A stretch of 64,000 bases of DNA from Actinostola sp. cb2023 (Eukaryota; Cnidaria; Anthozoa; Actiniaria; Actinostolidae): positions 62,001 to 126,000 of the forward strand of contig JAUJYZ010001007.1 in the NCBI GenBank assembly GCA_033675265.1, in the 5' to 3' direction. The notes under the pieces are model-generated. The model saw only the letters and a list, made by a program, of their open reading frames with translations. It was not told the DNA's origin and searched no databases. A program made the translations under genes and the position numbers. Every line of letters begins with the position of its first letter. The first letter of the stretch is position 1. This document shows positions 1,931-52,700 of this stretch, one piece after another.

Positions 1931-1952
1931 CTCTGATCGACAGGCTTTCATT

Positions 1953-2147
1953 TTGCCAGAAGAAAAGAAGGCAAAGTTCGCACGCCTACGTGAATCCATC
2001 TTAGAAAGCCGATCAACGTCTGAAAAAACGCTCCAGCGGTTCGCCGGAAAGATAACCTCATTCTCTATTGCCGTGCCCGCAGCCCAACTGTATACTCGAG
2101 AAATCTTCAAGTCGATTGCCGGACACTCCAACTCGTCGCGCCTATAA
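1953..2147 (+). pseudogene. RT thumb / connection segment, shifted frame
   Basis: The 64 codons starting LPEEKKAKFARLRESILE continue the RT downstream of the 1905-1935 frameshift. The segment ends after AGHSNSSRL, where the conserved frame moves again at an A5 run (about 2146-2150). Part of the same polyprotein as its neighbours, not a separate gene. Confidence 0.6.
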
Positions 2148-2857
2148 AAATCTCTGGTCCACTGCGAGAAGAGATCGAGTTTTGGCGTTTTTTAGATACC
2201 TGGCAAGAGTGCCTCTATTGGCCTTACGAGAGACACATCACTGTAAAGATCTGTAGTGACGCATCAGATTATGCTTGGGGGGGAGTAATAGTGGTGCCGG
2301 GTGATTCCCCAGTTGAAATCCGTGATTACTGGGATGACGAGTCGCGTAACCTGCCCATAGCCATCAGGGAAGCTCTGGCTCTTCTTTATACCCTTCTAGC
2401 AAGCCAAAGCGTAATCAGGAATGCCAGAGTAGATGCCCACACTGTCAATATGACCTTTCTACAATCATGGAAGAAACTGGGCGGAAAAAACCGTCAACTG
2501 AATGCCGTCCTTAAGCGACTCTACTCTGCTACATTAGAAAACAATGTGCACCTGACCTTGCAGTACATCCCATCTCATTCTAACCCAGCCGATCCACCTT
2601 CTCGCCAGACGTCAGACCTCGATTGCACACTCTCCCCAGAGATATGGGCCACAGTAGAGGAACACTTCGGGCCCCACACTATAGATCTCATGTCACTAGA
2701 TTCAAATGCCCAACGAGATGCCAGTGGTCAGCCTTTGAAGCACTATACCCCTTCTTCACACCCTTGTCTAGTGGAATCAACGTGTTCGCCCAAGTCATCG
2801 AACGGGATGAAAACGTGTACGTTTTTCCACCATTTGTTCTCGTGGGTCCGCTCTTAA
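2140..2857 (+). pseudogene. RNase H domain of the YR retrotransposon
   Basis: Frame 2 carries an RNase H-like fold: an ICSDASDYAWGG start (first Asp, about 2250-2285), then the LPIAIREALALL helix with its Glu, a VDAHTVNM segment and IPSHSNPADPPSR near the end, typical of DIRS/Ngaro RNase H. A further frameshift near 2740-2760 moves the end of the domain into frame 1. Function: degrades the RNA strand of the RNA:DNA hybrid. Confidence 0.75.
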
Positions 2858-3072
2858 AATTCCTGTCGAAGTGCGAAGCAAGCTTCACGATCGTTGTGCC
2901 CAAACTCTACCCGTTGCCCTTCTGGTGGCCAATTCTGCGCAGTCGCTGCCGGTCTTCGCTGAAATTAGGAAGTAAGGGACAATCACACATACTGCTCTTC
3001 CCTTCCACACATGGTGGCCTTTCCCACACGCGATGTTTGCCATGGGATTTGTTTGCTTTCAGAAAGCATTAG
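2740..3072 (+). pseudogene. Polyprotein C-terminal tail (shifted frame)
   Basis: From about 2740 the frame-1 reading (FAQVIERDENVYVFPPFV and onward to a TAG at 3070-3072) continues the protein past the RNase H domain. YR retroelements often carry a methyltransferase-like tail here; I cannot see enough motifs to claim it. The tail ends 40 bases before the recombinase ATG. Confidence 0.5.
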
Positions 3073-3112
3073 TTAACACCTCCCTTCCTCCCTTGTGTTT
3101 AAGGACAGTAGG

Positions 3113-4423
3113 ATGCGTATCTGGAGACCTGCCGAACCATGCCCGAGTTGTGCCTACTTAAACGACTGGAACTTTAACTTTTGTCAATGGTGCGGGTTTA
3201 GAGTGGAACCCATTCCACGTCCGACCATGCCAATCAGGATTAATACAGAGGAAATTAGTGAACGCCTCTCCCAGCTTGAAAAGAAAAAGAAAGAAAAACC
3301 ATACGAAAGACAGAAATCGGCGTTACATCGCGAATTTACAGCGTTCTTAGCTTCTCTGCCCACTCCCAAGTCGCTTTCCTCAGCCACATCGCGGGACATC
3401 GTATCGTTCCTGGTCTGGAAGGACAAGACGGGAAGAACAAAAGTCCACCAGTCGGACTGCACCCAAGCCAGTATAGATTCTCCCACCGCTTGTGCATGCC
3501 CTACGAGACTGGCGGCCGGCACAATCGATAGTTTGATCGGAAAACTACGAACTATCTTCGCCCAGGCAGAACGGGGCGGTAGTTGGAACTACGAACTCGG
3601 TACGGGCAATCCAGCCTCCCACCACTGCGTCACCGACTACCTAAAAGCCATCAAAGAAGAGCAAGCAGAAGCCAGGGTCCGCCCTAAGAAGGCGGTCCCA
3701 CTATTCATGGATAAATTAGAGAAACTGACGAAGCATATATTAAGTCAATTGCAGACGGGAGAAAATTCTCCCATCGCACTTTATATTCTCAGTCGCGACC
3801 TCTGTTTTTTCAGTTTAGACTTCTTCTCGGGAGACCGCGCGGCGGATTTAAGTATGATACTCTCCAGGGAGGTGTTGTTTTTTCCCGATAGGACAGGCCT
3901 CCTTTTTAATCATACATTCGGGAAAACTTTGCGGGGGGACGCCCTTAACACCTTCGCGATTCGCCGATGTTCTAACCTCATCCTTTGGCCAGTAACCAAC
4001 TTTGAGCGCTACTTATCAATCTGCCGTCTTATAAACATTGACTTACGGGCCGGACACCTTTTTCGTAACACGCGGGACAATAATGTATGTGAAGCGCATT
4101 TTTCTAGTTCGGCGGTGCGCAACAGGCTTAAGGGATACCTTGAGGCGATAGGGGTGGATAACGGCGAGACCCCACATAGCCTACGTTCCGGGTGCGCTAT
4201 CACTCTCTCTCTCCTCGGGATACCACACAAATCTATAGCGCAGCATATAGGCTGGTCAAGCACAAATATGCTGGATCACTATTCCGACTTAAGGGAAGCC
4301 TTGAGACCAGACGCGCCAGCCGCAGCCCTGGCCGCGAGCACAACTAGTGCATCCATGGGGGAAATAGTGTCGGCGTACAAAGCCGTAGATGACGTTTCTA
4401 ACTTTAGATCCGCAGTAAACTAA
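3113..4423 (+). CDS. Tyrosine recombinase (YR) of the retrotransposon, intact
   Basis: First ATG at 3113 (an in-frame GTG lies at 3095); about 436 codons without interruption. N-terminal CPSCAYLNDWNFNFCQWCG is a CxxC...CxxC zinc ribbon, followed by a basic Lys/Glu-rich helix. The C-terminal half has the YR signature: FSGDRAADLS (first Arg, about 3820-3850), PHSLRSGCAI (His/Arg box, about 4172-4201), QHIGW, and MLDHYSD with the candidate nucleophile Tyr (about 4269-4289). It would integrate the circular cDNA without target duplication. It is the only undamaged ORF of the element. Two ORFs overlapping on the minus strand are shadows. Confidence 0.88.
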   Translation: MRIWRPAEPCPSCAYLNDWNFNFCQWCGFRVEPIPRPTMPIRINTEEISERLSQLEKKKKEKPYERQKSALHREFTAFLASLPTPKSLSSATSRDIVSFLVWKDKTGRTKVHQSDCTQASIDSPTACACPTRLAAGTIDSLIGKLRTIFAQAERGGSWNYELGTGNPASHHCVTDYLKAIKEEQAEARVRPKKAVPLFMDKLEKLTKHILSQLQTGENSPIALYILSRDLCFFSLDFFSGDRAADLSMILSREVLFFPDRTGLLFNHTFGKTLRGDALNTFAIRRCSNLILWPVTNFERYLSICRLINIDLRAGHLFRNTRDNNVCEAHFSSSAVRNRLKGYLEAIGVDNGETPHSLRSGCAITLSLLGIPHKSIAQHIGWSSTNMLDHYSDLREALRPDAPAAALAASTTSASMGEIVSAYKAVDDVSNFRSAVN

Positions 4424-15632: not shown

Positions 15633-16222
15633 AACATCAGGGACCTTAAGAGGCTGTCCGTTTAAGAACCGGACGCTCGATTTTCTGCCCGTAATGGATT
15701 TTCTTTACATTTTCCATGCAAGATAACCAGTCTATATGATAAACAAAAACCACAATAATTTGGAGTGTAGTGCACTTTTTCGATATTTTTAGCGACATTT
15801 TCCGAAGACGGTCAAATGTTGGCTTTGGACTGGAATGATATACAATCTGCAATAATGGTAAGATATTTATAATTGAGCAAGTAGAGAGAGAATAATGATT
15901 TTTTGAAAATGCCTTACAAACAGTGCTTGAAAAAATTGAGTGAATATGATGCTGTACTTCAAAACAAATTTTCTCTAAATTCTGACGTGATCTGGAATTC
16001 TGGCCATTATCGATGTTCAGTACTAGGGCTAGTGTACTAGAAACAGGAATATAATTTTTGGGGTTCATGTCTTAATTAAATTAATTTTGAAAACTCGTTC
16101 CCAGTCCTTTACTCGTTTCCAAAGTGGCTAATTTCATTTGTTTCACATTTGTCCTGGGATTGTATGATGTGATGACTGTATAGACTTTTCCAGCTTGTGG
16201 CAGAACAAAAGGACAGCTTGAA

Positions 16223-16570
16223 ATGGCGCTGAGTAGTGACGAAGATATGAGTGAATTGACGCAAAGTACCTTATCTCAAGAAAGTTTAAATTTGTTCAAT
16301 TTGGATGATATTCTGGGAGTTTTAGAACCTGAACCGAGTACAAATAATCCATGCGAGCCGGCTACAGACATGACAACGTTGCAATCCCCTTCGATCGATC
16401 AAAACATTTCCCTTATTTCAGACGAAAACCTAGAGAAAATGAAAGAACAAAGAATTCCTGAAAATTCTAAAAGCAACACAGCATGGGCATTAGGAGTTTG
16501 GAGAGACTGGGCAGTGGAAAGAAATAGCAAAGCACTACAAACTTCACCCACTGAAAGACTGACATGCTGA
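16223..16570 (+). pseudogene. N-terminal fragment of a DUF3504 (Crypton-derived) protein
   Basis: ATG at 16223; acidic Ser/Thr-rich start, then PENSKSNTAWALGVWRDWAV at residues 80-99, the conserved opening of the DUF3504 / QRICH1-ZMYM-type domain derived from Crypton tyrosine recombinases (compare KTTLYKNNWAVNIFTEWRDN in the gene at 27551). The frame stops at 16570, just after RNSKALQTSPTERLTC; the remaining domain (about 250 residues) is absent. Confidence 0.6.
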
Positions 16571-17120: not shown

Positions 17121-17638
17121 ACACACAAATACATAATGAGATATGGACGAGAAAAAGGCGTGCCATTCCTTTCGTTCGACTGCTAAGAGCTGGGTTAAAA
17201 TGAAGAAAACAGGACATCCCTCCCATTCTACAAGTGAATCCCTTGTTCTAGTGTGGAACTCATGCAGGGGCAAACCTCGACTTTTTGTGTTCAACTTCTG
17301 ATATACAAATTCGTGCTCGCTAAGGAACTCTCCGAGACACTGGCCACAGACAGTACAAAAGTTTCAGGGGCACGAAATAGGAAGCTCTTCAGGGGTGAGA
17401 TGGTGGGGTATGTACGGTGGGCTAGACTTGTAGACGCAGTTTGTATCATTAGGCTAGGCTGTGATTCCTTCGCGATTCTCCTGGGTTTCACCGTCCATGG
17501 TGATCCAGCGTACGTCTGACTTTTGATGGACTTCGTGACAACAATGTGGTGCTGATCAAGGGTAGGCATTGTACGCTATCAGTCTTAACTTCCACGAAAT
17601 TTAAGAGCGAGTGACTGAGAAGACCGGGCAGATCCAAC

Positions 17639-18066
17639 GGATGGGGGTCAGCCGATTCTTTCCATACTTTGGCTGTTTTATACATTTGACCAATGATGTT
17701 GAAAACAAATATTATTTTTTGTTGTCCTTTTTGAAGATAAACATCGTGTTTTCAACTCAAATGTGTATGGAATCTATTCAACTTTTGTAGTCTGTTCTTA
17801 AAAGCACTATTGTATACTTCTAGGGCTAAATCGAAGTCTATGAAGTCTTTTTCGTGAATTAGGCACGTTCATAATTCGCATAATGAAAATTTCGAAGATT
17901 TTGACTATGCCTGAAAACGCATACAACGCATCAACGTCACGCAATAGACTTATTGTGTCCTTCAAAGTAATCAAGCTTTCGCCTGCTTGACTTAGTTTTT
18001 CAAGCACAACAATTACTTTTATCATTTTCATCAAGTTCTAAATGTTTTAATTGGCGAATTATCTTT
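17639..18066 (-). repeat. Left inverted repeat of the unnamed transposon
   Basis: Reverse complement of parts of 32136-32814. It lacks about 170 bp present in the right copy (around 32270-32440) and the G-run insertion near 32640-32710. Confidence 0.75.
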
Positions 18067-18603
18067 ATTATTATTATTAAGGTACGAAAAATCTAGTTTT
18101 AAGCATTTTAAATATATGCACATATTTTAAAATTACCGTAGTTCAGTGCGACTAGTCTGAGTAACCAGAATTTCCAGTAAAATAATTAAGATGAGTTGTT
18201 CTTTTGTAAGCGACGATTGCCCATGTAGTGCTTCTCCTGAAAACGTTGATTATACAACAGTTATACAAGTTATATCGTGTACCAATGACATTAGCAAGCA
18301 TTTGTCAGCACTTGGGATAAGCAAAGTCACAGGACGAACAGAAGAAGCAATTCCAGTTAGAGAATCCAATGTTATATTAAGTCGTGCTGAATTGATTATT
18401 TGGAGAGAAGAAGAAGAAGACGTGCTAAAGTTGACAGTCTGTCCATTACATCGCCACCGATTTACCAATGGATGGGTTGGAAGGAAAGAGAGGGTACCGA
18501 AATGAGGACAGGGGTGTGCCGCAGTGATGTCGAAATTGGAAAATTCTTACCCTTTCCAAGGATTGTTACTGAAATATAGATCCAATTTAAGGAATAAGTG
18601 AAT

Positions 18604-18929
18604 ATACCGTATTTCCTCGATTAAGCGGCCTGGGCGCTTATTTTAAATTTTGTGATCAAGGGGGGCGCTTAATCGAGGGGGGGGGGAGGGCACGGGGGCG
18701 CTCTTAAATTAAAAACGTGATTTGAACTCGGAAACATAACTTCAATACGGTACTATATAAAGGAACTGTAATAAAACGCAAGTTGTATGCCACATTCTGT
18801 AATTTTTACTGACCATATTTCTTAGGGGAGGGGAGGAGGCGCTTAATCGAGGAGCGCGCTTGTTTCAAATTTTGTGGGCAAGGGGGGCGCTTAATCGAGG
18901 GTGGGCGCTTAATCGAGGAAATACGGTAT
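18604..18929. mobile_element. Tc1/pogo-like MITE in intron of the unnamed transposase gene
   Basis: Perfect 24-bp inverted ends (left 18604-18627 starts ATACCGTATTTCCTCGATTA; right 18906-18929). Interior repeats CGCTTAATCGAGG several times (18665, 18839, 18889). TA lies at the junctions. Confidence 0.8.
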
Positions 18930-19249
18930 TCATTTGCTGTTACGCATAGCGAATGTTTTTTTTAAACTAAAGAGTGTACTCCAAGGATCGGATATTTTAA
19001 TTGATAGTGAAAAATATGGTATAATATGGTACCCAATTTAAGGTTCTGGAGGTTCAAAAATCATACCCTATTCGGGACACATACCTATACTAAGTACCTA
19101 CTAGAAAGTATAATAGTTTACATTTGTTTTCTCTACGTTATTATTAAATTAATCCAAGCTTTCAGATCAGCGATCCATCATCAGGGAAACATAATGTGAA
19201 TACAAACGAGAAAGATTTCAGTCACTCTTTGAGTTTCTCTCTTAAGAGG

Positions 19250-19425
19250 ATGTTACAAGAGATGGCAACGATTTCTAGTGCAACATTGTTGCGCTAAAAG
19301 TTGGCATAGTATAACATAGCGCGCGGTTACGATTTTTAACGATACGATATTCAATATGTATTGCCGCGCGCGTGCCTTTTTTAACCCAACAATGTTGCAC
19401 TAAAAGTCGTTCTGTGTAATATCAC
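19250..19425. repeat. Foldback MITE
   Basis: CGATTTCTAGTGCAACATTG at 19269 pairs with CAATGTTGCACTAAAAGTCG at 19391; the outer flanks also pair weakly. Interior is GC-rich (GCGCGCGG ... CCGCGCGCG) and itself palindromic. Confidence 0.65.
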
Positions 19426-22400
19426 CTACAGTTTTCCCCTATGTTGCCTTTCTCCGTACATGGAGGATCTGCTATCAATTTATAATTAATATGTAACAGT
19501 GAGCAAGTTTTATGGTTATTTGTTTAGAAGTCTCTAAAATAGCCAGCAACGAAAATCATGAAGAACCAACAACCATTGCCAGCATGAACGAAATTACATA
19601 TGACACCAGTACGATTCAAGAGACTATGTTATCCACTGGAGATCTAGATCAAGAAGAAGCAAGTATATGGATAGACGAAAAGGAGCTTCAGCATGAGAAG
19701 AAGGGTGTTTTGAATAACGCTCTCATTCTACAGTCCAGTGTCATCGACTCTGAATACTTCCTGGGAAGATGTGTCAAAAACCCAGCAAAAATATTACTTT
19801 AGAAAGGCAAAAGAGGTTTTTCAAACAACACTATCTGTAATCGTGCCTGGACAAGAAGAAGAACTTTGGAATTGTCTTCGGTATGAAGAAGTAGTCACAG
19901 AAAGTCAAAGAAAGTGAACCAGCAAAGAAGAAAACTAGATTGGATACCGGTGTTGTTGATACACCTATATCAAGTTATGAAGACACAGACAACTGGCAAA
20001 CTAAACTTCAGCTACTTTCCTTGTTTGCTAATGACTTCAGTAAAACGGAACTTACACAAATGATACCGGGCATTTCTAAGTGGAGAATCGACCGTGTTTG
20101 ACGGCATGCAATAGATGTAGGTGTGGGGCAACCTCCAGTCGAGCAACCAATATATCGTACACGCCTCGATCCTGTTAAGACTGACCACTTCATTGATTTT
20201 ATATCCAGGCCGTGCTTCCTACAAGACGTTGCATATGGAACTCGAAAGCTGAAAATGGATTCTGGTGGACATGCTGTAATCCCTGCAGTTATAAGAACTC
20301 TAATCCCATCAAGGATAATTGCTCAATATAAATCATATTGTAGCGATATAGAATTTGAGCCAGCAAGTGAACAAACCCTTTTTAGAATTCTAGAAGTATG
20401 TTCAGCGTCCATGCAAAAGTCATTGCATGGCCTCGACTACTTGATAACGGAAGGTGTCCAGGCGTTTGAGTCCTTAGAGTCTATCGCTGAGACTGTCAGA
20501 TCATTAGGCAAAGTGAAAGCTGGTACGAACAGTGCAAACAGCAGATGAAAAATGGAAAGAGGTACCTTAAATCAGACTTCAAGCTTCATGTTGGCGATGA
20601 GGAAAGGAGTACTGATCACTGCATTGCGTTTGCCTTGAGCGATACTGGCGATCCGTCTTTCAGGAAACCATGTAGCCATAGACATGGAATCATTTGTGAC
20701 TCTTGTCAAGACATTGTTGCTGTCATACAAGAAGTAAGTCGAAAGATTACAGATGATTCATTTACACCAGATGATGGTACAAGAGCACAAATGAAGTGAA
20801 ATTAATGCATGGAAAGCCCACAATGTTCGTACGGTAAACCAAGAGATGGCAAAGCAAGATGTCCTTTCAAACTTGGCTCAAAATAGCTGCCTAATAGAGA
20901 TGGATTGGGCAATTAAATTGCTCCCGATGTACTACAGAGAACATATGAAGAATTTTTTGGCACAAAAAGGGAAAAGCTGGCATGTAAGTGCAGTGATTGT
21001 CAAGCAAGATGGTGGTTTTGTTGGACATTGCTATGTTCACTTATTTGAAAATTGTACTCAGGACTGGTTTGCAGTTGCGTCCATTGTCGAGCATTCATTG
21101 GAAACCATCAAGGTTGAGCAGCCAAATATCACCGATGTATAACTTCGATCTGACAACGGTGCTTGTTATCATAATGCTCCTTTGATGTTTACTCTACCAT
21201 CTATTGGCACTAGATCCCGAGCGTTAGAATTAAAATATATGATTTTTCTGAGCCCCAAGCGGGCAAAGACATTTGCGACAGAAAAATTGCGCCAATGAAA
21301 GTGCACATCAGAAGATATGCTAACGAAAAGAACAATGTCATCACAGCTAGCGACATGAAGAAAGCACTGGAATCTCATGGTGGTGTTAGAGGGTGTAAAG
21401 CAGCTGTTGTAGCTGTGGACACCAACATGTACAATGAACGTGGTAAGGAAAACAAGCTTAAAGGGGGACTAGCACGTAATTTGAACCAAAAACACAGAAA
21501 TTAAAATATCACCTCGAAACAATGCTGTTGTAATCTTTATCTTGTTAACGAACTTTGTCTGCAATATTTTGTCGAAATTCCAACGCGAAGTCGTATCAAT
21601 TTGCGATTACTTTTACGACCGCCATTAATCAGATGTCGCCTAACCAGGTTTCCGAGTAAGACTGGTGCGAGCGGGAAGTGACGTCAGACACTCCAGCGAA
21701 ACAGACTAACGTGGCTAATTTCTATGCAAACGTTAGGTAGCGCACCGGACGATATCAAAGAGAACTTTAAATAAAATAACTCCTTCAGAATGCCAGCTAA
21801 TCACTGTGTTATTCAGGGATGCAGTAATAGGTCGAATTTAAAAAACGGAATATCAATGCACGTTTCTCCAATAAATAATGCAGAATGCGCGAAGTGGAAA
21901 CGCTTTGTAAGAACACACAGAGCGAATTTCACTCCAGACGATCGTTTCCCTATATGTTCAGAACATTTCGAAGATAAATGTTTCACAAGATCAGTGCACG
22001 TTAAAGAGTGTAGGAGAGTTCTAAAGACGGGTTCTGTGCCAACCATTTGGAATACAAGCTCTGCAACTTGTGATCAACAAACTTCTGTCAGTGACAGAGA
22101 ACGCCGACAGGTGAGTTTCACAATTTGTTCAGTGTAACAGTGTCAACTGTATACGTTTCCAAAACTTACTGAAATAACGAGAAGAAAGAAAGTTCAACCA
22201 ATAATGTAGAAATCAGAAGGATGATCGGTTGTTCATTAGTTCCCAGAGCTTTTAAATAGGCTTTTGCGATGATCGCGCCTTTGGCGCGAAATATAAGCTT
22301 ACGTCTTTGGCGCGAAATGATCGAGCATTGTTTACTATAGTCAATTCATCATTGAGTTTGATGATTACTCTACGATCTGATGCATTATTTGCCTCAATTC

Positions 22401-23503
22401 ATCAATAATTAAGATGATTTAGAACGCATTATCTCTTATAACAGAATGAACTGTTAGGACATTGTAGTTCTCAAGTAATAAAAGGAAGCCGGCTAAAGTA
22501 ATAAGCTAGCTATACTAGTATAGCTATGCGAAATTCACATTCGAATCTTTATAGACACATTCGATAAAGCCAATATGAAATTATACTAATAAAAACTTAC
22601 AAAACGAATCATCTCAATTAATTATTGTGCGAAATCTTATAAATGATTTGGCATGGTGATACCTACTCACGGGATTTTTCCGCAGACACTTAGAAATGCA
22701 TTGCACACTTCCATCGAAGAGCCGGCAAACACCGGATACAGTACAGCTAGCGACGATCAAACTTCCATTGGAACACCGACAGAACCAACCGAAGTGGAAT
22801 CAAATGAAGAAATGCTCAATACAGACCCAACTATTGATTTCTAAGCCACTTTAGAGGCTTCGGAATGACCCTCTGATGAATCTAACATTCTGACAGCCGA
22901 ATCTGTAAGTATCGTCACAACACACCACAATAATAATTCAATTATGTCTAGATCCAACAAATACGCATGTCATTTATTTTCGTTTGTAGATTTCACAAGA
23001 AAATAATCAAAGCGGAAGTACAAAGAGCATCGCCAATCGAGTGAACCGACAGATCGAAAACGAACTCAAACTTTCCAAGAGAAAAGTGAAAAAGCTACAA
23101 AGAAAAATTCGAATGGAAAAAGAACAACAACAAATGCTGACGTTATTAGGCGAAAAAGAGAAAAGACAGCCTATGACCTCTTCAGGTATTGTTTTACATA
23201 AAAATACTTCAACGTACCAATATATTGGTAATTTATATTATTTATATTTTCTAGTTACCCAGACGTATTGGTACGATTTTGAACCTGATCATGATCAAAC
23301 AGCTAATGACCCATCATGGTCACTAGATGCACAGAAAGTTGAACTAGAAGATCTCATGGATATTGATAAACCAAATGAACAACCTTTGGAGAACATAGAA
23401 ATGCTTTCTCCACAAGAAAACGATCAAGAGTACGTGGAATTTGAAGATGACGAAGAGAATAAGGACCAAATTGTGAAAACAAGGTTTTTATTGTAATACA
23501 GTA

Positions 23504-23616
23504 ATGCATCAGTCACTTTTTACTCAATTTAAAGCCAGTGAAGTCCCCGGTCACCGGGGCAGAAATGAATGGTGAACTCCCTCGTCAGTACTCATTTGTT
23601 CTGTAGATAATATTTT
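23504..23616. repeat. Partial copy of the TA-MITE found at 62927, inside Kolobok intron 4
   Basis: Begins after TA with ATGCATCAGTCA, matching the 62927 element end, followed by about 95 bp nearly identical to 63000-63095 (CTCAATTTAAAGCCAGTGAA onward). The C-run and the right half are missing. Confidence 0.65.
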
Positions 23617-25639
23617 CATGTTTACCTGTGTCTATGTCTGTAACAGCACACACACAAATCCCTGGATGATGATTTTATAATTATTGGTGTATACATGTAT
23701 TTACATATATTACATTGTATGTTTCAAACAGGTTGGAACTAGAAGCCAAAGATATACGCGAAGAGCCAAAAGCAATAGTTTTCTTGTCAAAGCTGCTTTT
23801 ACTTTTCCAATTTTGTCATTATTGCTTCTGGCCAAAGCCATGTGTCAATATCAACCAGTCTGGCACTTCCATTTCAATAAAGGCAACATGTGAAAAGTGT
23901 AAGCAGACCTTTTCCTGGGATAGCCAGCCTATGCTACTTGGACGGTTTCCTGCTGGGAATCTCCTGCTTAGTTTTGCAGCCATATGTGCTGGTGCATCAA
24001 TAAAAAAGCTCCTTTTGGTATTCCAACACATGAATGTGTTGGTGTATCATGAAGCCAGTTATTATTACCATCAGCGTCATTTACTGATCCCAACAATAGT
24101 GACCTTTTGGCGTGAATACAAGGAAAAGATAATACACAGTCTGTCAGGAAAAGAGGTTGTGCTAGCTGGAGATGGCAGACACGATAGTATGGGGCATTCA
24201 GCCAAGTTTTGCACATACTCAATCCTCTGCTGCACTATTGGTCTTATCATTGACATAGTCCTTGTACAGGTACAGATTTGACAATCCATCTCTTAGCTTA
24301 CTATCCCAAACTTTAGCATTTTATCATACTCAAGAGAGTAAGGGAATGCAAAATTGCTACCCTATGATAATCGCTCTGTTACTTTTTTTACATTTTGTTA
24401 CCAGGCTCTGCTCACTATTCGCTATAATATTGAATTTGGGACAGCGAGCATGAATGATGTAATTGAAAATTATTATATGGCTTTCACTCTCTTAATTATA
24501 CTCTTTTGTCATACTATATTTTGACCAACTATTATTCTCACATTCATCTAATCATTCATCCATTTAGTTAGAACAAAGAAAAATATTAATTTATGCAATA
24601 CCATCCATAAAGTTAAATATTATTATTATTATTTCCAGGCCAATGAAGCTGGTAGCAGCTCTGAGATGAAATTCATTGGACATCAAAGAGCCTTTGGTTT
24701 CTTATTGTCAACTGGAATGATAAATACGTCATTCATTTCCGACCGCCATGCATCCATTGCAAAATGGATGAGAGAACAATGCCCCCTAAATTGTAAAGCA
24801 TTAGGAAAACGAGTAATACTTCTTTTTTTTTTACCTATGGCACATAGCAAAGAGTAAGTATTCAATCATGTTTGGTTGGTACATGTATGTCATGAAATAA
24901 TATGTTATTTTTGTTACACATTTATGGTCCATGAAACCATAAATATTATTTTAGTCATTTGACTGACAAACCATTAATTTACTTTTAAACCAAACTATTT
25001 TTGCTTGTAATCTAGAAATCCAGAAGGTACTACTTAATCTAAGTAAAGAAAAAACATGTGAGATCATTGGGAGATGGAGAAAGGCCTGCATTAGACAATT
25101 TTATTGGTCAATTACATCCACACAAGAACTCCTGCGTGAGGTGAAACTGGCAAAATTTCAAAGTTTCTTGTCACATGTCATCAATAAACACAAGACCCTC
25201 CCTAACAGATTGTTTAATGAATGTCATCATGGTGAGATCACTACACAAAAAGTGTGGATGCATAAAAGTAAGAACTGGCTTGTTTCAGTATATCATTATT
25301 TGTTGACAAAAATTAATGAAGTGATAACTATAGACAATTTCAATACTTTAATATTTATATCTAGGTTCAGTGGCATATGAAAAACTGGTTGATGCCCCTA
25401 ACAACACAAGATTGGTATCGGCTATAAAAAAGCATCATCAAATGGGCAAACCAGCTGCCTCGAAAGTTATCACTCAGTGATAAATCAGTTTGCACCAAAA
25501 ATGCTAGCCTTCTCTTATCTTGGTATGCTAAGCAGGTATGTCGTAGGATTTTAACATTTTCCATAATTATTTATGTACAATGTACATGTACAATGTATAT
25601 ATAAACATCATGTAAGTCTTAAATTAAAGATATACTTTT

Positions 25640-25720
25640 GTCTCTGACTTTAGCTTTTTTATTCAGATGTTTCGACTGTAAATCAACAGTCTTCATCAGT
25701 TGGATATCATGTAAGTCATT
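25640..25720. repeat. Penelope-like terminal phrase in Kolobok intron 8
   Basis: CAGATGTTTCGACTGTAAAT ... CAGTCTTCATCAGTTG has the 'TTTCGxCxG...TCATCAG' look of Penelope-like element ends (compare 34448-34485). Only the terminus is present. Confidence 0.3.
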
Positions 25721-26959
25721 CTCAAATAGATTGTCCATATGGTTTTCATGATGATAATGAATGTGGATGTATCCATGATATAGTTATTGTATAATATATA
25801 CAACGTACATATTCACACTGAGTCAAGCAATGGGTGAGCAATTCTTTCTATTTTATGGACAAGCTTCTTGAGAATACTAATATTGTAACAAATATTAAAT
25901 ATAACTCATAATAATTATTAACTCATAATAAATATTATTATACTGCACTGCACTTGAATTTCAACTTGAATCTATATCATGTATCTAGATACATCTCAGT
26001 TTATATCGCTCTCGTCATCTGTAGTGTCCTGAAAGATAATACATATATATACACATAAATAAATACAAAAACATAATTCTTACTTTCAAATTCTGTGATC
26101 ATCAGGACCATCCTAGCAGCACTTCACTTTAATTACAACTTGAACCGAGAGTCAAAACTCGATGATCATGGGGAACCACGTCTAACAGTCAACTATGTAA
26201 AGTACAAATACGGGGAGGCAACAATCAAAGAAGTGAAAATACCACAAAATTATGGTAACAAATTCAATATAACTATTTCAGGTTATGAAATTTATATATT
26301 TTTTATTCAGCAACCACAGAGACAACAAACCTAGTGACTGAGACACGTACAGTGCCTCATTGTAACATTTCTCAATATACATACATGTATATCTTATCCC
26401 GACACAACTTTTTTTGGTTTACAGACTACGTTGGTGAAATCTATGAAACACTGGCAAATACACCTAGAAATGAGTTGAAACTGACAAAGGAAAATCTACA
26501 AGCAAGTGTACCAGAACCAATGTGTTCTGCTTTGGATAAGCAGTCAAAGAGTGAAGCAATTCAAAAATATACTGAAAGAAAAGCCAAAGAAACAGTACTA
26601 TGCCCCCCAACATGTACAGGTATAGTTGTAGTTATACTTATTCACATGCATAATATTATTAAAAATATTGAAAGAATAAAAATGATCTTAGGTGAAGAGA
26701 TTGAGGCTATGCTGCAGAGGGAGCAGGAACAACAACAAGGAGTCAGAAGACCAGTCCAGGGAAGAAAAGCACCAACCTACACAAAATGTGGTGCTCCACG
26801 AAAGGGACACAAAAGAGGGCAGTGTGAAAACTAGAACTTCATTTCTAATGATTTTAAATCACTGGCCATGTAATATTTTCATAAGTTGAGTTCATGTTCT
26901 ATTTATTTCATGACTACATGTAATTACATTTTTAAGCTTACATTTCACAGTAAGTAATG

Positions 26960-27092
26960 TTTAAAGGCCGACAATGAGGACTTGACGGGATTTCAAAGTC
27001 CGCGCAATGAGTTCAAGTCCGAGGCGAAGCCGAGGACTTGAACTCATTGCAAGGACTTTGAAATCCCGTCAAGTCCGAATTGGAGGCCTTTG
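26960..27092. repeat. Long imperfect hairpin
   Basis: GGACTTGACGGGATTTCAAAGTCC and CAATGAGTTCAAGTCC on the left pair with GGACTTGAACTCATTG and GGACTTTGAAATCCCGTCAA on the right around a GAGGCGAAGCCGA centre; the outermost AAAGGCC / GGCCTTT also pairs. It lies between the THAP gene and the DUF3504 gene. Confidence 0.75.
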
Positions 27093-27246
27093 AACGACTT
27101 CAACTCCTCATTAATTATTCGGGAGGAATCAAAGACAAATAAAAGTTGCTGGTAGTTGAGTATTTTGCAAGGAAAACTAAAAAATATCGAGAAAATAGGG
27201 CTACAAATTCTTTTAATCACTGTTATTATGAAGAGCAAAGTTAATT

Positions 27247-27545
27247 GAACAATCAGTGCTATTCAATTGCCTTTTGTTCATAATGCAATCAAATATTTTT
27301 TAAAGCATAGTCTCTCGGGATATGTTAGCTGCATTACCTGTTACAGTTACTGGTTTCAATTAAGCTAGTTCAGTGTTAATTGAACAAAACTTTATTGAGC
27401 AATCATAATAATAATCAGTGCTATTCATGCCATTCGTACATATTGCTTTCAAGTAATGATGTTTTCTAAAGGCATAGTCTCTCGGGATATGCTAAATCAA
27501 GCCTGAGTTGCGAGTTACAGTTTTCCGGTTCAGTTCAGTGCAAAT
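27247..27545 (+). repeat. Imperfect 140-bp tandem duplication upstream of the DUF3504 gene
   Basis: 27247-27384 and 27408-27545 share CAATCAGTGCTATTCA and GCATAGTCTCTCGGGATATG in the same order and spacing, and both end near GTTCAGT. The second copy ends at the start codon (27551), so this may be the promoter region. Confidence 0.65.
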
Positions 27546-27550
27546 CCAGC

Positions 27551-29081
27551 ATGGCGTCAAGAGCAACCGATTCCTCTGACGAGTTTGAGCCTCCACTAAA
27601 GCGGTTCAGAAAACCTCTAGCGCCGAAGGAACAAGATTTAAAATTGAAAAATGCTATCCCAAAAACAACATTATACAAGAATAACTGGGCAGTGAACATC
27701 TTTACTGAATGGCGTGATAATAGAGAAAACAAGATGGCCACTTTTGAACCCAAAAGTCAGTCAAGATTTGTACCTCACGAGGAAGTTGAAAACTTGGATA
27801 TTAAGCCATGGGAAAAAATGAGTGTGCCGTCACTTAATTTTTGGATTTCCAAATTTCTCCAAGAGGTGTGCAACAAGAAAGGAGAGAGATACCCGGCAAA
27901 AACTCTGTATCAGATTGTTGCTTCCCTAAAAAGATATTTGGAGTCGAGAGGCCGGTCGGATGTAAATATGATGAATAAATCAAATGAAAGGTATGCTGTA
28001 TACATAGTATATTATATGCATGTTCTATTAGAGGTATTACTCATATTATAGAAGCTATTTTTTCATTGCATAAAGATAACATGTTATTTTCTGCTCTCAG
28101 TTTCAGCTATCTGCGTCAAGTCTTAGATGCCGAGATGAAAGACGTGCACAAAATGGGGATCATAAACCAGAATACAGAAAAACTACCAATGTCTGACATG
28201 GAGGAAGAGAAGATGTGGGAAAGCGGACTATTTGGACCTTTAACAGCTAAGACTATTCTTAATACACTTTATTTCTATAATGGGAAATTATTTGGAATGA
28301 GATCGAAGGAGCATCGTAGTTTAAGGCTTTCTGATATTATAGTAGACTCGGAAACCATTACATTTAAGGAGAATTCATCTAAGACGTATCATGGGGGGAT
28401 CTCAGACTTGAAAAAAAACACCAAGGAAAGTAAGACACTTATGTCATAGTGTAGGGGAAGAGAATCACGAGCGATGCCTAGTTTCTATTTATAAGCTTTA
28501 TTATGAGAAAGTCAATAGTTTAGCTGTTAAGAATAAGGCGTTTTTACTTTCAGCCATTTGAAAACGATATATCGTTTAAGAATGCTCCAGTTGGTATTCA
28601 CAGTTTAAATGCAATACTCCCTAATTTGTGTGCCGCAATAGGAGCTCCTAGAAAAACGAGCCACAGTCTTCGTGTTACAACTGTAACTAAATTGTTTAAT
28701 GCTCAAGTAGAAGAGAAATTAATTCGGAGTCGTAGTGGCCACACTAGTAATGCTCTTTTTGCATATGAGAAATCGAGCAAGGAGCAGGAACAAAATGTTT
28801 CAGAAATTCTGGGTCCTGTAAAACCCAGTAAGCAGGATTTTATTGAAAGTAAGCCTAAGCCGAGTGCTTCTAGTAGTTCAACTGAACAAGAATTGCCTGT
28901 TTTTGAAATAGACGAATTGGATAGCTTTTTTGATGAGATTTTGGGAGAAGATGAAAGCTTAAGTATGTCTAATAATGTAGCACCTCCACAACCGCCCGGA
29001 TGGAAGTATGCTTCCGATGGGCCAATTAAGATAAGTGGCAATAATTGCAATGTAACCATTAATCAAATCAGAAAGCCTTAA
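27551..29081 (+). pseudogene. DUF3504 / Crypton-like tyrosine recombinase gene
   Basis: Exon 1 27551-27990 (ATG at 27551), intron 27991-28100 (GTATGC...CTCTCAG), exon 2 from 28101. KTTLYKNNWAVNIFTEWRDN opens the domain; GMRSKEHRSLRL (about 28297-28330), SHSLRVTTVTKLF (28658-28696), RSGHTSN and LFAYEKS (about 28757-28778) supply candidate R, H-x-x-R, H and Y of the recombinase. The conserved frame is lost at an A8 run (28411-28418), runs in another frame to about 28550, and returns for 28555-29081. It ends in NNCNVTINQ, a tail common in this family. Family members are Crypton-derived recombinases or domesticated, DNA-binding relatives. It lies inside the Kolobok. Confidence 0.7.
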
Positions 29082-29365
29082 ATTATCATTTACAGTGCAT
29101 TCAGCCGAGAGAGAATCTTCTTTTGTGTTAAGTAAATTCATATAAATAGATATTATATCCAATGTATCTTTATCAACGGACGGATGATTGATTGATGTGC
29201 AAGTTCAGTTTATTTCATGGTTTAATGCACTTGGATGATAATCTAACTTAGTAAAAGAGGTGTATCCACCTCATAATGATAATGAATGGAATTTGAAAGG
29301 AAATTGTTTAATCTGATCAATAAAAGAGTAATTATGCATGCCATGATGTTTTTCAATAATTTATT

Positions 29366-29437
29366 CGTAGTAACTGGAAAAATTTCCAGTTACTGGAACA
29401 ACTTGTTCCAGTAACTAGAAACTTTTCCAGTTACTGC
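29366..29437. repeat. Cluster of three small palindromes
   Basis: TAACTGGAAAAATTTCCAGTTA, then CTGGAACAACTTGTTCCAG, then a related AACTAGAAACTTTTCCAGTT stretch, back to back. Confidence 0.75.
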
Positions 29438-29563
29438 TAGGAGGACTAGACCAGGTATCCAGTGTCCTCAAGGGATTAAAATCAGACCATTGGATTGGCT
29501 GAATACCTCGTGAATAATTAATGAGGATTTGAAGCTTATTTGAAGTATTTTGAATGAACGTAC

Positions 29564-30318
29564 CTCAAAATTATCAGACTCTCCTTCTTCATCCACAACT
29601 TCCTCATCCTCATATCCTTTATACTCGCCATCCTCAGAGGGGAATTTTCCTCTGATAGCATTATACGCACAGCATGGTAATAATGGCAGTCGCTTTGCAT
29701 ATCCCATATACTCCCAAACAAGTCAAGTAAACTGACGGTATGATACAGATCGAAGAAACCTGAATTAGAATGGACAATGTGGATTTGTTTTTGTTACTGA
29801 CTACTAATTTAATTAAAATATATTACCCTGATGAATCTTTCAATTATACAGTGTATCGCTTTTTTCCGACTATGGCGGCGATTTGTAATACCCACTCATC
29901 CAAACAAACTGAAAGAAAGCCATCAATGTCCAACTCCTAAAGTATTTCTTTGCATCAGTCGATTTCTGTACAACAGAAGCATTCTTCTGGCTTTAATAGC
30001 TACAAGTTCTACAGAACACTGCGAGCAATGACACCTGAAATGACAAGGAAAAATATAACTTTATATGTCGATACATTCTCAAAATGTTGACTACAATATA
30101 GTAGCAATATGATTTCCTAACATACCACGAAAACGATCCTGTAACATTTGTTGCTGTTCGAGTTCTTAGTCGACTTGCTGTTGATATTCGGCGATCTCTT
30201 GTTCTGTGGCAATAGGTTCTTCGTCTGAAACACTGTCAAGTCTTTCGCTGTTTATCGTAGATGGATCCTGATTTGAGATGGAGTCCAGAATGCTTACACT
30301 TTCAGCAAAAACTTCCAT
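29564..30318 (-). pseudogene. P2X7 'ballast'-domain-like gene
   Basis: Minus strand. Exon 1 30318-30126 starts ATG (MEVFAESVSILDS), is acidic and has an in-frame TAA at 30168-30166. Exon 2 from 30034 reads WCHCSQC, then in a shifted frame PEECFCCTEID and GFLSVCLDEWVLQIAA. Exon 3 29759-29564 reads SYRQFT ... LVWEYMGY, LPLLPCCAYNAIRGKFPSED and GEYKGYEDEE. WCxC-xxC, ECxCC, VCLD-x2-VLQ, YRQF, PxCC-x5-IR-x2-FP and G-x-Y-x-G are, in this order, the conserved points of the zinc-binding cytoplasmic 'ballast' domain of P2X7 receptors, also known as single-domain proteins in invertebrates. No P2X channel is present. At least three stops/shifts make it inactive as assembled. Confidence 0.65.
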
Positions 30319-31795
30319 TTTAGTTCGGTTTTACCACCACGACTTATGAAGATGGCCGATCTGGCTGGAGTATGTGACGTCACAATATCAACCGCTGACC
30401 GAAATTCGCGGGTAGATCTGGCGACAACTTAGTAATGGCGGACGGCAATATACTGCTGCTTTACGTTCAATATTTCCTTGTTATTTCAATCAAATAACAT
30501 AATTCTTTCAAATTTAGAGTAAGTGTCATATAAGTAATCACATGAGATGGATAAATTGGCTTTTAAAAATGTCAAAAATTGACCAAATTACGTGCTAGTC
30601 CCCCTTTAAAGGAATCAGTAAACTAAACAACTTTGAGTTCAAAGATGAGGGAATTCAAGTATGGCGTGCATATAATATCGGTCATGGACAGTTAATTCCA
30701 TTTGATGCAATACAGCCACAAACAAAAACTGGTTTGACAATTATCGAGCCTTTTGGATCTACACAGCCGTCATCTTTGATTTCAAGACCAGTTCCTAAAC
30801 CATCACCGAAGGCTGAAGTATTTTTTTTGCAACGTAGCAGGCGGTGTGCTTACATTTACCTGCGAAAGCGATGCTGAAGCTCACATGGATACATAATTTA
30901 GTACCTGAAAAGGAGAGCTTATAAGATTCTGTGAGACGGAAATGGGCTCAAAATGTCAGTGAAATTGTTTCCACAACAAAGGAAGTAAATGTTGCAAATG
31001 TAAACGAGGTCAATTTAAATTCATCGACTGCAGATCTTGAATGTACAGAACAAGGATCATCAGAGGGATGGGTATTAAAATGCCAGAAAACCGGTTCGAA
31101 AACGTCAGCAAATGTAAAAGTGTTTTTGATAGGAAAATTTAATGAAGACTTACAAATAGGCCAAAAAGCAAGTCCAGCTAACGTTTCTAGAGAGATGCAG
31201 AAGACAAAAGACTGTGAAGGTTGTTTTCTCTTTACTCCAGAGGAATGGAAAACAGAAAGACAAATAGCCACCTTCTTCTCGCGCTTGACAGCATTGCAAA
31301 GAAAAGAAGCACATCCAATTACAATACACGAGGAATAACACTTTGACGAAGAAGAATACAAAGCAATAGAAGAGAACACTGCCAGTCAGAATCTCAGGGA
31401 CGCCTTTTATGAGGCGGCAGACATAGGACACCCTCTTATTTTTGAAGGGCACAACATATGTGAGTTAGCAAGGAACAATAAGCTCACAAATTGCAAAGTT
31501 GCCGAACTTGACAGAATTTGCAGCCTTTATGGTCTAGTCGTCGATGGATCAAGAAAGCAAAAACTTTCCTATGTTAACAGTACCACATTTGCCAAAGTTT
31601 GCCCTTGTTTCAGGTGATAAGGTATGGCTGGAAGATACAATTTACCGTGTCGGAAAATTCGGGAACGCGTTGCAGTTATTTGGGGGTGGGGGGAAATACT
31701 AAATTTAACCTTAACCTTACAACGCTCTTTATTTTATTGCTAATAATAATTATTATATTAGAGTAAATATATTAATAGTGCCACTTTACTATAGA

Positions 31796-31814
31796 CAGGG
31801 CCGTACACAGCACA

Positions 31815-31852
<38 letters not shown>

Positions 31853-31931
31853 AGAAGATACCAAAAAGTACTGAGAAGTGATCTATTTTTATTTCAGTAT
31901 CTTTTTTGCTGTTAAAGTCTTCCTCCACCCC

Positions 31932-31972
<41 letters not shown>

Positions 31973-31996
31973 GAATTTTGGGTTGTGTACGGCCCT
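31796..31996. mobile_element. Foldback element with internal G37 and C35 tracts
   Basis: Ends CAGGGCCGTACAC / GTGTACGGCCCTG are exact inverted repeats. Directly inside lie G(37) at 31815-31851 and C(35) at 31933-31967, which would pair in a foldback. CAGGGCCG-type ends resemble hAT MITEs, but an 8-bp target duplication was not found. Confidence 0.7.
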
Positions 31997-32135
31997 GATA
32001 GATGGCGAAAGAAAACCCTTTGAAAATGTTTTCGTAAAGTTGAGATAATTACCGTACGATTATACGATTATAGTACGATTCAATGCACAACTCAGTACAT
32101 ACTTACAAAACGAATCTTAATATTGATCTTGAAAA

Positions 32136-32814
32136 GATAATTCGCCAATTTAAACATTTAGAACTTGATGAAAATGATAAAAGTAATTGTTGTGCTTGAA
32201 AAACTAAGTCAAGCAGGCGAAAGCTTGATTACATTGAAGGACACAATAAGTAGATTGCGTGACGTTGATGCGTCACCACAGCAATTAGTGGTCAAAGTAT
32301 GGTCCAAAAACTTACTCAGATTAGGAAGAAATTTAAAGATCCCAAATATCTGATACATTGCCGTGAAATTAGAGATAATACTTAGCACTGGGAACTTTGT
32401 TTTGTTCTAATCAAACGCCGCCGATTGGAGAAAATGAATTTTGAAATATGCATTTTCAGGCGTAGTCAAAATCTTCGAAATTTGCATAATGCGAATTATG
32501 AACGTACCTAATTCACGAAAAAGACTTCATAGACTTCGATTTAGCTTTAGAAGTATACAATAGTCCTTTTAAGAACAGACTACAAAAGTTGAATTGATTT
32601 CATACACATTTCAGTTGAAAACACGATGTTTATCTTCAGACGCCGTGACGGCCGAAATTTCACTTCGTCGAATTCGCATATTTAGGGGGGGGGGGGGGGG
32701 GGGGGGGGGTCTCAGGAACTAAAAGGACTGAACAAAAAATAATATTTGTTTTCAACATCATTGGTCAAATGTATAAAACAGCCAAAGTATGGAAAAAATT
32801 GGCCGACCCCATCC
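32136..32814 (+). repeat. Right inverted repeat of the unnamed transposon
   Basis: Pairs with 17639-18066. It carries an inserted stretch with 25 G at 32685-32709. Confidence 0.75.
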
Positions 32815-39134: not shown

Positions 39135-41622
39135 TTACTGATGGTAAGCATTGCTGTGCCATATAGCAAAACAGTTATTTTTCTGAGTGCAATGCAAATA
39201 GACTTGACACTGAGGTGCACTGCAGTAAGATATGACTTTCAGTTCTGTCTTGGAGGTCTTGTAACACACTTTGCAGTTTCTCTTTGTATCAGAGAATTGA
39301 GGGATGTGGACAGTCTCAAATTGTGCAGGTTCTTTGGTTCTACCAGGTCGGAAGACAGGAGGCTGACCATATTCCTCAAGTCCACTAAGCTGTCGCACAA
39401 GCTCCTCTCGATATTCTGCCAAGGAGTACTTTTGAGGCCTCTTCAATTCTTGTACATCTTTATTTTGCCTTCGGTACATCTGGAATAAAATAAAGCTATT
39501 CACCACAGCGATGTCTATCATGTGGAAGAACAGTGTTTTCCACCAGCGCATGCATTTTCTGAGCACATTGTTCTTTCCAATAATTTGTTCAGATAGATTG
39601 ACACCATTCATGAAGTTATTATAGTCATCAATGGTTTTGGGCTGCCTAACCATAACTTTTGTCCATCGAGCATTCACCTTTTCTTTTCTTTCTACCATCA
39701 CAAAGTCATTTGCATTATGGATAGAGGATAGCATAGTTAATACCCTTTTGTCCTTCCACTGCATTGCCAAACAATTATCATCTTCCCTTACCCACCTCAT
39801 GGTACCTCTTTCCTTTCGTCGAGCCCACTCCTTTCCTTTCTTCATGGACTCTGGGAAACCTCTTCTGTTCTCTGCAGAAGTACCACAAGATGGAAGGAGA
39901 AGATTGAAAAGGTCAAGCACAAGTTTTGGAGAAGTATAAAAATTGTCAAAATAGATATGGTATCCTTGATTGACGCGAGGTTGGATCAGCTTCATTACCA
40001 CATCATAACCAAGGCCATTCACACTTTGTACTTCATCAGCTGCTCTTTTTCCAACATAAACATCAAAGTCACATGTGTATCCATTGAGACTATCTGCTAG
40101 AACCCAAAGCTTTATCCCCCATTTGGTGGGCTTGTCTCTAATATACTGCCTGATCCCAGGGTGTGTTATTATTATTATTATTATTATTAGAACGATGCTT
40201 AGATTTCACCATCCGTTCATCTACTGCTACATGCTGGAATGGCTGGTAAAGGGTCTTACAAAGTTCCTTGAAAGAGTCCATAAAACTGCGAACCTTTCGT
40301 AATTTATCTCTTTCGTCTTCAGTGTTTGGATCGACAATGTGAAGCACTGCCAGTAATGCTTTGAATCTATCCCTTGACATAATACTTCTTGCCCAGAGAC
40401 CATGATACAACGACTTTGTGCTCCAGTAACGGTGGAAAGTAGAGACATTCACAAGACCCATATATATGAGCAAAGCAATGAGGTGTTCAATTTCTTGGGG
40501 ATTAGTTTCCTGCCATGCGCCATCATTATTGGCATAGTACTGCTTATTGCCAATCACACCCCATGCATAACCATTCGTGTGCTGACATATTTCAAGAAGC
40601 AGAGCATTTGTTATAAATAGCTTGAAAAAATCAAGAGCTCTGGTCATACTTCCTCTCAGAATTGGGGCAGTAAAATGTAAACCAGGTGGGCGGTTTGGTA
40701 GAAAATCAGGTAGGTTGTTTCCTATGTCATTGTCTGTATAACTTTGAAAGGCTTCATCAGCTTGTCTCGGTGCTGCGACTCTCCCTCTGCCTCTTCCTCT
40801 TAGTCCTATTCCTCTCCTCCCTCCTCTTGCTCTTCCTCTTCCTCCTCTTGCTCTTCCTCCAACTGCTCGTCTCAGTACCCTTCCTTTACCTCTCTGAATA
40901 GGTTGATAATCAGAACTCTCACTACTGTCACTCAATTCTGGCGATGCAGTAGCATTAGTTGCACCACTTTCAGTCTGAGTACTATGAAAACAAACAATGT
41001 CAGTATTAGAGGTAGTTGTTTTGAATCTCAATTCAATTCAATTCATTTTATTTTTCAATACCACATGATTGGAATCTAGTTTTAGGATGTGAAATAACAA
41101 TACAAAACCTATACCGGCAATATATCAACGACTTAGAATAAATAAAAAGGTTTAGATTATCAATAATAACCCAAATATTGAATTTTCCTGCTTCAACAAT
41201 GACACGTGCATGACCCGTAATTTGCATATTACGCGAAACACTCATCTGTTATATTTAGCTTGGAATTCGATTCCAAAATATATCCAACAAAGGTCCCAAG
41301 TCTTTATTTCGTTAACAGAAATGTTCAGATATCATTTATACATCATTCTAAGTACGATTTATATAAAAAAATCGATAGCTTTTACTCTGAATCAGCCACT
41401 CTACTATGAACATGTTTGTTTACGCTTCGTGACTCACCTCATGTCTTCATCAAAATCACTTGAATCTTGTAGTTCCCCGTCGATTTCAAACTCCTCGCCA
41501 CTAGATAAACCCCCAGTGACACTATCTATATCACTTCCAACCTCATTTTCATTTCGTGCACACATTTCTATGACTTCTTCAACAATGAAATTACCACGAG
41601 TTGTTCGCTCATGGGACGCCAT
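39135..41622 (-). pseudogene. piggyBac-family transposase gene, two exons, catalytically altered
   Basis: Minus strand. Exon 1 41622-41438 (MASHERTTRGNFIVEE, acidic), GTGAGT donor; exon 2 starts 40981 (TCATAG acceptor, in phase). The RGxGRG-rich stretch is followed by the DDE_Tnp_1_7 domain: FFKLFITNALL, VAVDERMV (first Asp, about 40210), YFDNFYTS (second Asp, about 39945). The third motif, normally GVD, reads MNGVNLSEQ (Asn codon 39597-39599). The C-terminus has a Cys/His-rich zinc domain (CKVCYKTS ... CSAPQCQVYLHC). An (AAT)n stretch at 40165-40190 sits after KHRS and shifts the frame. It would move DNA between TTAA sites; as assembled it is inactive. Confidence 0.88.
41035..41340. mobile_element. 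LINE scraps inside the piggyBac intron
   Basis: On the minus strand, a 3' UTR ends AATAAAATGAATTGAATTGA (tail at 41030-41050). On the plus strand, from 41208, YLAWNSIPKYIQQRSQVFIS resembles the C-terminal W-N-x-x-P box of LINE RT proteins. Two fragments in opposite orientation. Confidence 0.4.
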
Positions 41623-49309: not shown

Positions 49310-49899
49310 CGTTACGAAACAAACCAAGCCGAAATTACAGTGATTTGTGGGGGGAAATTATACATTCAACTGGCCATATCTCAGCCGTTATTTAACCGAT
49401 TGCTCTCAAATTTGGCATGTAAATGTGTTTATATTGGGCAATCGTAATTAGTGCCTCGTTTCCCTTAGAACTTTATTTATAAGTATAAGCTTGTTGTCCC
49501 TTTGTTCCTCACTTGACACTTTCAGTTCCACCACTCGGTTCTACCAGGGATAAATGTTCCCACATAATTGTTACTCTGGTACATCCATGTACGTATTGTT
49601 AACCGTATCAGTATTAATTCATGCCATATCAGAACTTGAACACTGGGAAGTGTTAACACACAGCATATTTTTACCATTTGGTAATACGATACACGTGCAA
49701 AATATTAGTTTCGTACAACTGTCGGTTTTTCTACGCGAACACATCGAAAATGCTTAATTTTCGCTTCGCGTCATCGTCGGCCGAAGGCTATTTTGAGGGA
49801 ATTTCGACTTTCTCCAATTTTGAAGAAAATAAAAAGCTCTTTAAGTTTTCGATACTATTTTTGGAAATGGTACACCAAAGGGGTTCTATTGGTGAAATA

Positions 49900-52241: not shown

Positions 52242-52249
52242 CTCTATAT

Positions 52250-52700
52250 AATGGGATATAAAGTTCTTAAATAGTCGTCTCGAACTCAGACGTGCCAGAA
52301 AGGTTGACCTTGACCTTGGGATCCTTTCCAAGAATTTGACCTTGGAATCTTCCAAGAATTTGACCACCCCTCCCCCATCACTTTGACCTCAATTCCCATT
52401 TCAGGGGAACCCCCTTTTGAAGTCCGACTAATGCAGGTATTCCTGGTGTCCTTTATTTGCAGGTATTCCTGGAGTTTCGTCTGAGTTCGATCTCTCCTTT
52501 ACCTACTACTACTCCTCTGAAAAACCGCATGAGTGGAGAACATACTGGCAAGTTAATGAGGACAATGATTGTAGGACCAGAGAGGGCAGGCTTTGATTAT
52601 CTATCATTCAGCCTTTCTCAAGTGGAAAAGCGAAAGAAGCAGACAGATATAAACATTCTTTAAAATGTTGTGCTTTACATTCCTAAAAATGCTCAAGTGA
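52250..52700. other. Upstream of the polymerase fragment; small inverted repeat
   Basis: TCTCGAACTCAGACG (52279) pairs with CGTCTGAGTTCGA (52479); between them GACCTTG/GAATTTGACC phrases repeat (52310-52365) and CAGGTATTCCTGG occurs twice (52434, 52460). Confidence 0.4.

Follow-up and report, generated by a model that had tools for sequence, protein, structure and literature searches.

We analysed a 64,000-nt window from the sea anemone Actinostola sp. cb2023 (contig JAUJYZ010001007.1, C270:62001-126000 of the 424-Mb assembly). The subject is a candidate autonomous DNA transposon at positions 17601-32814 of this window, where two long terminal inverted repeats (TIRs) enclose a broken plus-strand gene that has itself been invaded by a second mobile element. 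The features of the locus are as follows.

17601-17604, no strand: left-end TTAA target site, whose right partner is lost here; both ends of the sister copy L009 carry TTAA at the corresponding position
17605-18081, plus: left TIR, placed by block alignment, shuffle test, blastn and L009
18191-18493, plus: exon 1, N-terminal Cys/His segment CPLHRHRFTNGW; matches the N-termini of relatives P0068 and P0080 (E ~1e-10)
19536-21461, plus: main coding exon, part 1, frame-broken; RNase H core pieces at 20798-21235 (EMDWAIK, SDNGACYH) and from 21238 (YDFSEPQAGKDICDR)
21462-30605, plus: nested Kolobok-like element with a THAP gene, 9,144 bp; termini AGGGGGACTAGC..GCTAGTCCCCCT; TTAA at 21458-21461 and 30606-30609
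27470-29078, plus: tyrosine-recombinase-like gene inside the nested element; QRICH1 PF25561 (E 9.1e-11) and Phage_integrase PF00589 (E 0.0016, below cut-off)
30608-31614, plus: main coding exon, part 2; C2H2 at 30828-30890, homeodomain-like helices (by eye) and SAP-like C-terminus
32116-32814, minus: right TIR; extra stretches within 32639-32720 and 32274-32446, outer 34 bp truncated

Inverted repeats and the broken gene

A first-pass annotation of the window had claimed inverted repeats here, and they were borne out. Three pairs of blocks (17644-17723/32731-32810, 17732-17923/32447-32638 and 17926-18066/32133-32273) show a complementary match of 94-97%, local alignment of one arm against the other scored 675.6 compared with a maximum of 30.2 for shuffles of one arm (n = 50), and blastn spanned 17639-18081 and 32116-32814. 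The right arm is longer than the left because of insertions. The left end had been placed wrongly at 17639; in L009 the repeat extends 34 bp further outward, up to TTAA. The right end of the window copy has no match to these outer 34 bp, and a 26-nt pattern taken from them has no second occurrence in the window when up to 3 mismatches are allowed. An ATCCAA duplication noticed by eye at the earlier ends was rejected because L009 puts the ends further out. A short insertion resembling a miniature inverted-repeat transposable element lies at 31795-32000 between the gene end and the right repeat. It is bounded by the inverted ends CAGGGCCGTACACAGCACAG / TTGTGTACGGCCCTG and contains long stretches of poly-G and poly-C; poly-G or poly-C runs also occur at 32685, 47294, 53593, 62947 and 63240.

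The enclosed gene carries the motifs SDNGACYH and DFSEPQAGKDICDR, and the 989-aa relative P0001 aligns along it, but it is broken: exon 1 is followed by pieces in different frames. The proposed multi-exon structure is supported, since the complete copies L041, L042 and L043 also have exon 1 ahead of their main frame (E <1e-43 with P0068), while it was not found at L040. The CPRHR segment of exon 1 is common to several members of a second group of relatives. The C2H2 remnant likewise agrees in position with the conserved C, C, H and H of the relatives. Within the intron, at 18618-18905, a unit with CGCTTAATCGAGG occurs as two direct copies of 66 nt (82%). The interval had been described as enclosing one gene; this holds for the plus-strand gene with the two motifs, but not for the interval as a whole, which also contains the nested element with two further genes.

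The nested element has 22-bp matching ends (AGGGGGACTAGCACGTAATTTG) with TTAA on each side, and joining its flanks over a single TTAA gives the reading NKLKGISKLNNFEF, the same as in the unbroken P0001. It encodes a THAP domain (PF05485, E 5.7e-13); among the 56 homologues listed, some have PF05485, PF20700 or both, and its gene matches the Actinostola sp. cb2023 protein QZH41_009897 with 100% identity at 56% query coverage. TTAA and the AG..CT ends agree with the Kolobok description in PMC9587614. It is a Kolobok-like element inserted at TTAA inside the putative transposase gene. Outside it, a 128-aa frame at 16184-16570 with a NTAWALGVWRDWAVERN stretch resembles, by eye, the beginning of the recombinase-like gene (27470) and is perhaps another such fragment. 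With its frames broken, a Kolobok-like insertion in the gene and a truncated right end, the window copy is dead.

Copies elsewhere in the genome

We searched the assembly with the TIR and with the protein. Matches to the TIR numbered 13, on 3 contigs, and included copies on C1571 and C264. The former, L009, has the repeat at both ends, and on each side TTAA is exactly where similarity breaks off. With 3,632 bp and a match to P0001 confined to residues 865-989, it is a deletion derivative. The latter, L010, is a partial copy. For the protein search, 46 of 1,343 candidates were scored; it yielded 50 rows, which fall at 46 places when that of the window is counted, and in 11 of these rows the open frame reaches 900 aa or more with no stop. 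Three of these 11 were read to both ends (L011, read as L041; L012, read as L042; and L040), and in L044 only one end was found in the 8.5 kb read.

L041 (7,626 bp) and L042 (7,676 bp) share 99.2% identity across 7,685 aligned columns and have different flanks. Their TIRs match over 737 columns at 98%, and their open reading frames (ORFs) from the first Met encode 980 and 981 aa, respectively. L040 is bounded by TTAA on either side; its TIRs (912 columns at 96.5%) have another end sequence, and the product of its 999-aa frame is only 38% identical to P0001. Outside the ends of L040, a second inverted match (C330:419200-419350 and 426383-426533, 151 columns, 89%) is arranged as if the element had landed between two copies of another repeat. 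Among the 30 loci compared, several pairs were 98-99.9% identical over most of the locus. The complete copies that were read measure 6.5-7.7 kb, and the TIRs in the copies read span about 400-900 bp. The earlier proposal of an autonomous element of about 6 kb needs correction in its size, in its ends, which lie further out at TTAA, and in that the window copy is broken and carries a nested insertion. Intact paralogues lacking inverted repeats, which would speak against a transposon, were not seen among the four loci with long open frames that were read to the ends on both sides (L040, L041, L042 and L043), all of which have paired repeats.

Repeats related to those of another copy, L036, gave 40 scored matches, 30 of them at 72-75% identity, and among the pairs read nine lie 3.3-5.0 kb apart. 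Judged by their ends, these repeats may belong to shorter elements that are mobilised in trans.

Target duplications and empty sites

We tallied the ends of 16 elements, 10 of which are pairs picked from the 40 rows of the L036-related search; left out of the tally are the window copy, which lacks its right end, the partial copy L010, and L044, which showed a single end in the stretch read. Ten had TTAA/TTAA (C1571, C1570, C333, C330:419661-426209, C858, C330:653741, C992, C973, C849 and C330:852240, where the reading covered two ends that lie 17.8 kb from each other), one TTAT/TTAT (C455) and one TATTAA (C444), and four were irregular (C1183 with TTAA/TCAA, C218, C820 and C433). At L041, TTAT flanks the element on both sides in direct orientation, a result that a palindromic repeat end cannot explain. 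Terminal inverted repeats combined with a target duplication of fixed length, both found here, are a mark of the DDD/E class.

Five flank pairs were then joined over one copy of the duplication and searched against the assembly, and uninterrupted empty sites were found for four of them. The C455 site is present on C252 (100% over 316 bp; a second place on C252 matches at 93% over part), the C444 site of L043 on C1542 and C1518 (99%) and C903 (84%), the C1570 site on C1521 (96%) and C860 (87%), and the C1571 site of L009 on C643 (95%; a further six places match in part, at 81%). The C333 site had no match across the junction in the assembly. The flanks overlap by 4 bp on C252 (L041), C860 (L042) and C643 (L009), and by 6 bp on C1542, C1518 and C903 (L043); among the seven empty sites read, the C1521 junction carries an extra T. 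The 6-bp duplication TATTAA of L043 (C444, 958-7846), seen on three empty sites in AT-rich sequence, perhaps reflects a shifted cut or slippage.

These results bear on whether the gene could belong to a host gene family beside which inverted repeats lie by chance. The many uncharacterised homologues in cnidarian gene sets are all that speaks for this, whereas copies 99% identical at different sites, exact boundaries, TTAA and the empty sites speak against it; the empty sites contradict it, and we give it next to no credence. Long TIRs, a main frame of about 1,000 aa with an upstream exon, dispersed near-identical copies, deletion derivatives and empty sites together indicate that the window copy is very probably a decayed copy of an autonomous DNA transposon. 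The interpretation of the first-pass annotation, an autonomous transposon with inverted repeats and an RNase H-fold gene, is thus supported, and the genome-wide search that it proposed turned up complete copies that have an inverted repeat at each end, as well as target duplications of 4 bp and empty sites.

Protein relatives and predicted fold

With the joined window pieces as query, 308 proteins were found at E <= 0.001. The best relative was P0001 (91% identity); further relatives with a named source came from corals (Oculina, Paramuricea), anemones (Actinostola, Exaiptasia) and amphioxus. Among the best 120 of the 308, most bore no name, and the others were called hypothetical, uncharacterized, Hypp8275, C2H2-type or, once, 'Transposon Tf2-6 poly'. 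A second, hand-typed query found 428 proteins at E <= 0.001 (overlap with the 308 not counted), and 14 of its best 120, when aligned with P0001, showed 25-36% identity. Comparison of profiles A1 and A3 by hhalign gave 100 of 100; this is no independent control because four sequences sit in both sets (six of the 61 rows of A3 come from the first search, four of them also being in A1).

Pfam scans of 16 relatives gave no match over the core and no transposase, piggyBac or KDZ match; the C-terminus of relative P0003 gave SAP PF02037 below threshold (E 0.00035, 20.6 bits vs a cut-off of 23.9). An NCBIfam scan of 6 proteins returned nothing credible, PDB sequence searches with P0001 and with the profile returned nothing credible for the catalytic core, BFVD gave no match below E 0.001, and no prokaryotic or viral relatives were confirmed in viral_contigs or genome_contigs.

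Structure prediction had been proposed as a check, and two predicted models show RNase H topology in the order b1-b2-b3-a-b4-a-b5-a together with invariant acidic residues. D466, D549, D578 and D590 (P0001 numbering) are invariant in 20/20 aligned sequences, and their equivalents in A3 are D117 (57/61, with 4 gaps), D200 (61/61), D229 (61/61) and D241 (60/61). We took D590, 41 residues after D549, as the third acid after the second, D549; D587 was rejected for this role because it is G or A in 14/20. In the alignment, a conserved CxH motif lies between the second and third acids at residues 553-555. An RNase H fold with three acidic residues characterizes the DDD/E class, and the models place the protein there, with a putative catalytic role for these residues. 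The fold is common to retroviral integrases and the Mos1 mariner transposase in PDB, but the flanking domains differ, and identity to these proteins was 8-20% among the structure matches listed by VIA-align.

The RNase H-fold protein of about 1,000 aa would be the transposase. D466, D549 and D590 would bind the metal ions, and the zinc-binding, C2H2 and SAP-like parts would bind the inverted repeats. The transposase would excise the element and join it to a staggered cut at TTAA, 4 bp being copied, and movement would probably be by cut-and-paste rather than by copying. The same enzyme could instead move the element replicatively, by copy-out-paste-in or another copying route, and the near-identical full copies and empty sites are compatible with both routes. 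We consider replicative movement improbable. L009 and L036 are internal-deletion derivatives that keep both ends, as is usual for cut-and-paste elements though not decisive, and besides exon 1 and the 994-aa main frame of the transposase the long frames of L041 are six of 96-166 aa (judged by length).

Placement among known transposon superfamilies

PMC9587614 lists 20 DDD/E superfamilies, and Kolobok is described there as having a DDD/E transposase, inverted repeats, a 4-bp TTAA duplication, 5'-RR..YY-3' termini and C/DxxH between the second D and the last E. The family could be a divergent branch of a named superfamily (Kolobok, Academ, Sola3 or another in Repbase) reachable only by better profiles. 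In favour of this, the TTAA duplication is common with Kolobok (PMC9587614) and piggyBac (PMC2872659), and the GA..TC termini of the window family obey the RR..YY rule of Kolobok. Kolobok also agrees in the DDD/E class, inverted repeats and occurrence in cnidarians. In contrast, other families of the same genome (those of L036, L043, C849 and L040) have GT..AC and do not obey it, CxH takes the place of C/DxxH, and the Pfam scans showed no THAP and no transposase. Profile comparison with stand-ins showed no similarity either: hhalign of A2 against A4, homologues of the nested THAP/TTAA element used as a Kolobok stand-in unchecked against Repbase, gave a probability of 0.1 of 100 (E 0.55), and that against one piggyBac-like window piece (39135-41037 region, named by eye only) gave 0.6 of 100 (E 0.089). 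We regard such a branch as possible but rather doubtful.

Other superfamilies differ in further respects. piggyBac has a DDD triad, and it shares the TTAA duplication. According to PMC2872659, piggyBac repeats are generally 12-19 bp with a CC[C/T]T end, unlike the repeats of about 400-900 bp beginning GA or GT found here. PMC12730594 gives CMC/Transib a C(2)C and H(3-4)H between the second D and the last E, whereas residues 549-590 of P0001 lack C(2)C, their only cysteines being C553 and C589. It also describes Zisupton/KDZ as a eukaryotic DDD/E DNA transposon with 8-bp duplications, unlike the duplications here of 4 bp in three comparisons and 6 bp at one insertion. No KDZ appeared among our Pfam matches. 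Pfam holds a KDZ model.

We lean slightly towards a new superfamily of eukaryotic DNA transposons with a DDD RNase H transposase, long inverted repeats and a TTAA target. It is only a candidate because the sequence comparison covered stand-ins for 2 of the 20 superfamilies. The candidate protein has about 1,000-1,150 aa, with an N-terminal Cys/His segment, an internal HxC..CxHxH..CxxC cluster, a C2H2 finger, homeodomain-like helices and a SAP-like tail. Searches of open-licence PMC text, which for the longer result lists covered titles and the opening lines of abstracts, brought up no description of the family; its status as undescribed, which the first-pass annotation put forward as a candidate, is unproven.

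Sola3 is a TTAA-targeting lineage. If the placement is correct, the family would be a fourth independent one beside piggyBac, Kolobok and Sola3, with proteins widespread in anthozoans and amphioxus. Recognition of 'uncharacterized' and 'hypothetical' coral, anemone and amphioxus proteins as transposases would make their annotation cleaner and give the classification of eukaryotic transposons one more lineage. With the near-identical unbroken copies, deletion derivatives and empty sites, transposon activity can be put to a direct test, and another TTAA-specific enzyme would make it possible to compare the ways in which unrelated transposases reach the same target.

Other features of the window

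Several other frames in the window resemble, by eye, mobile-element genes. Those at 890-4423 look like a DIRS/Ngaro-type retroelement, with a reverse transcriptase followed by a tyrosine recombinase, those at 39135-41037 (minus strand) like a piggyBac transposase, and those at 49886-52388 (minus strand) like a protein-primed DNA polymerase B of the Polinton kind. At 57879-60213, large uncharacterised frames of 580 and 238 aa follow a shorter ORF and resemble, again by eye, other unknown cnidarian repeat proteins.

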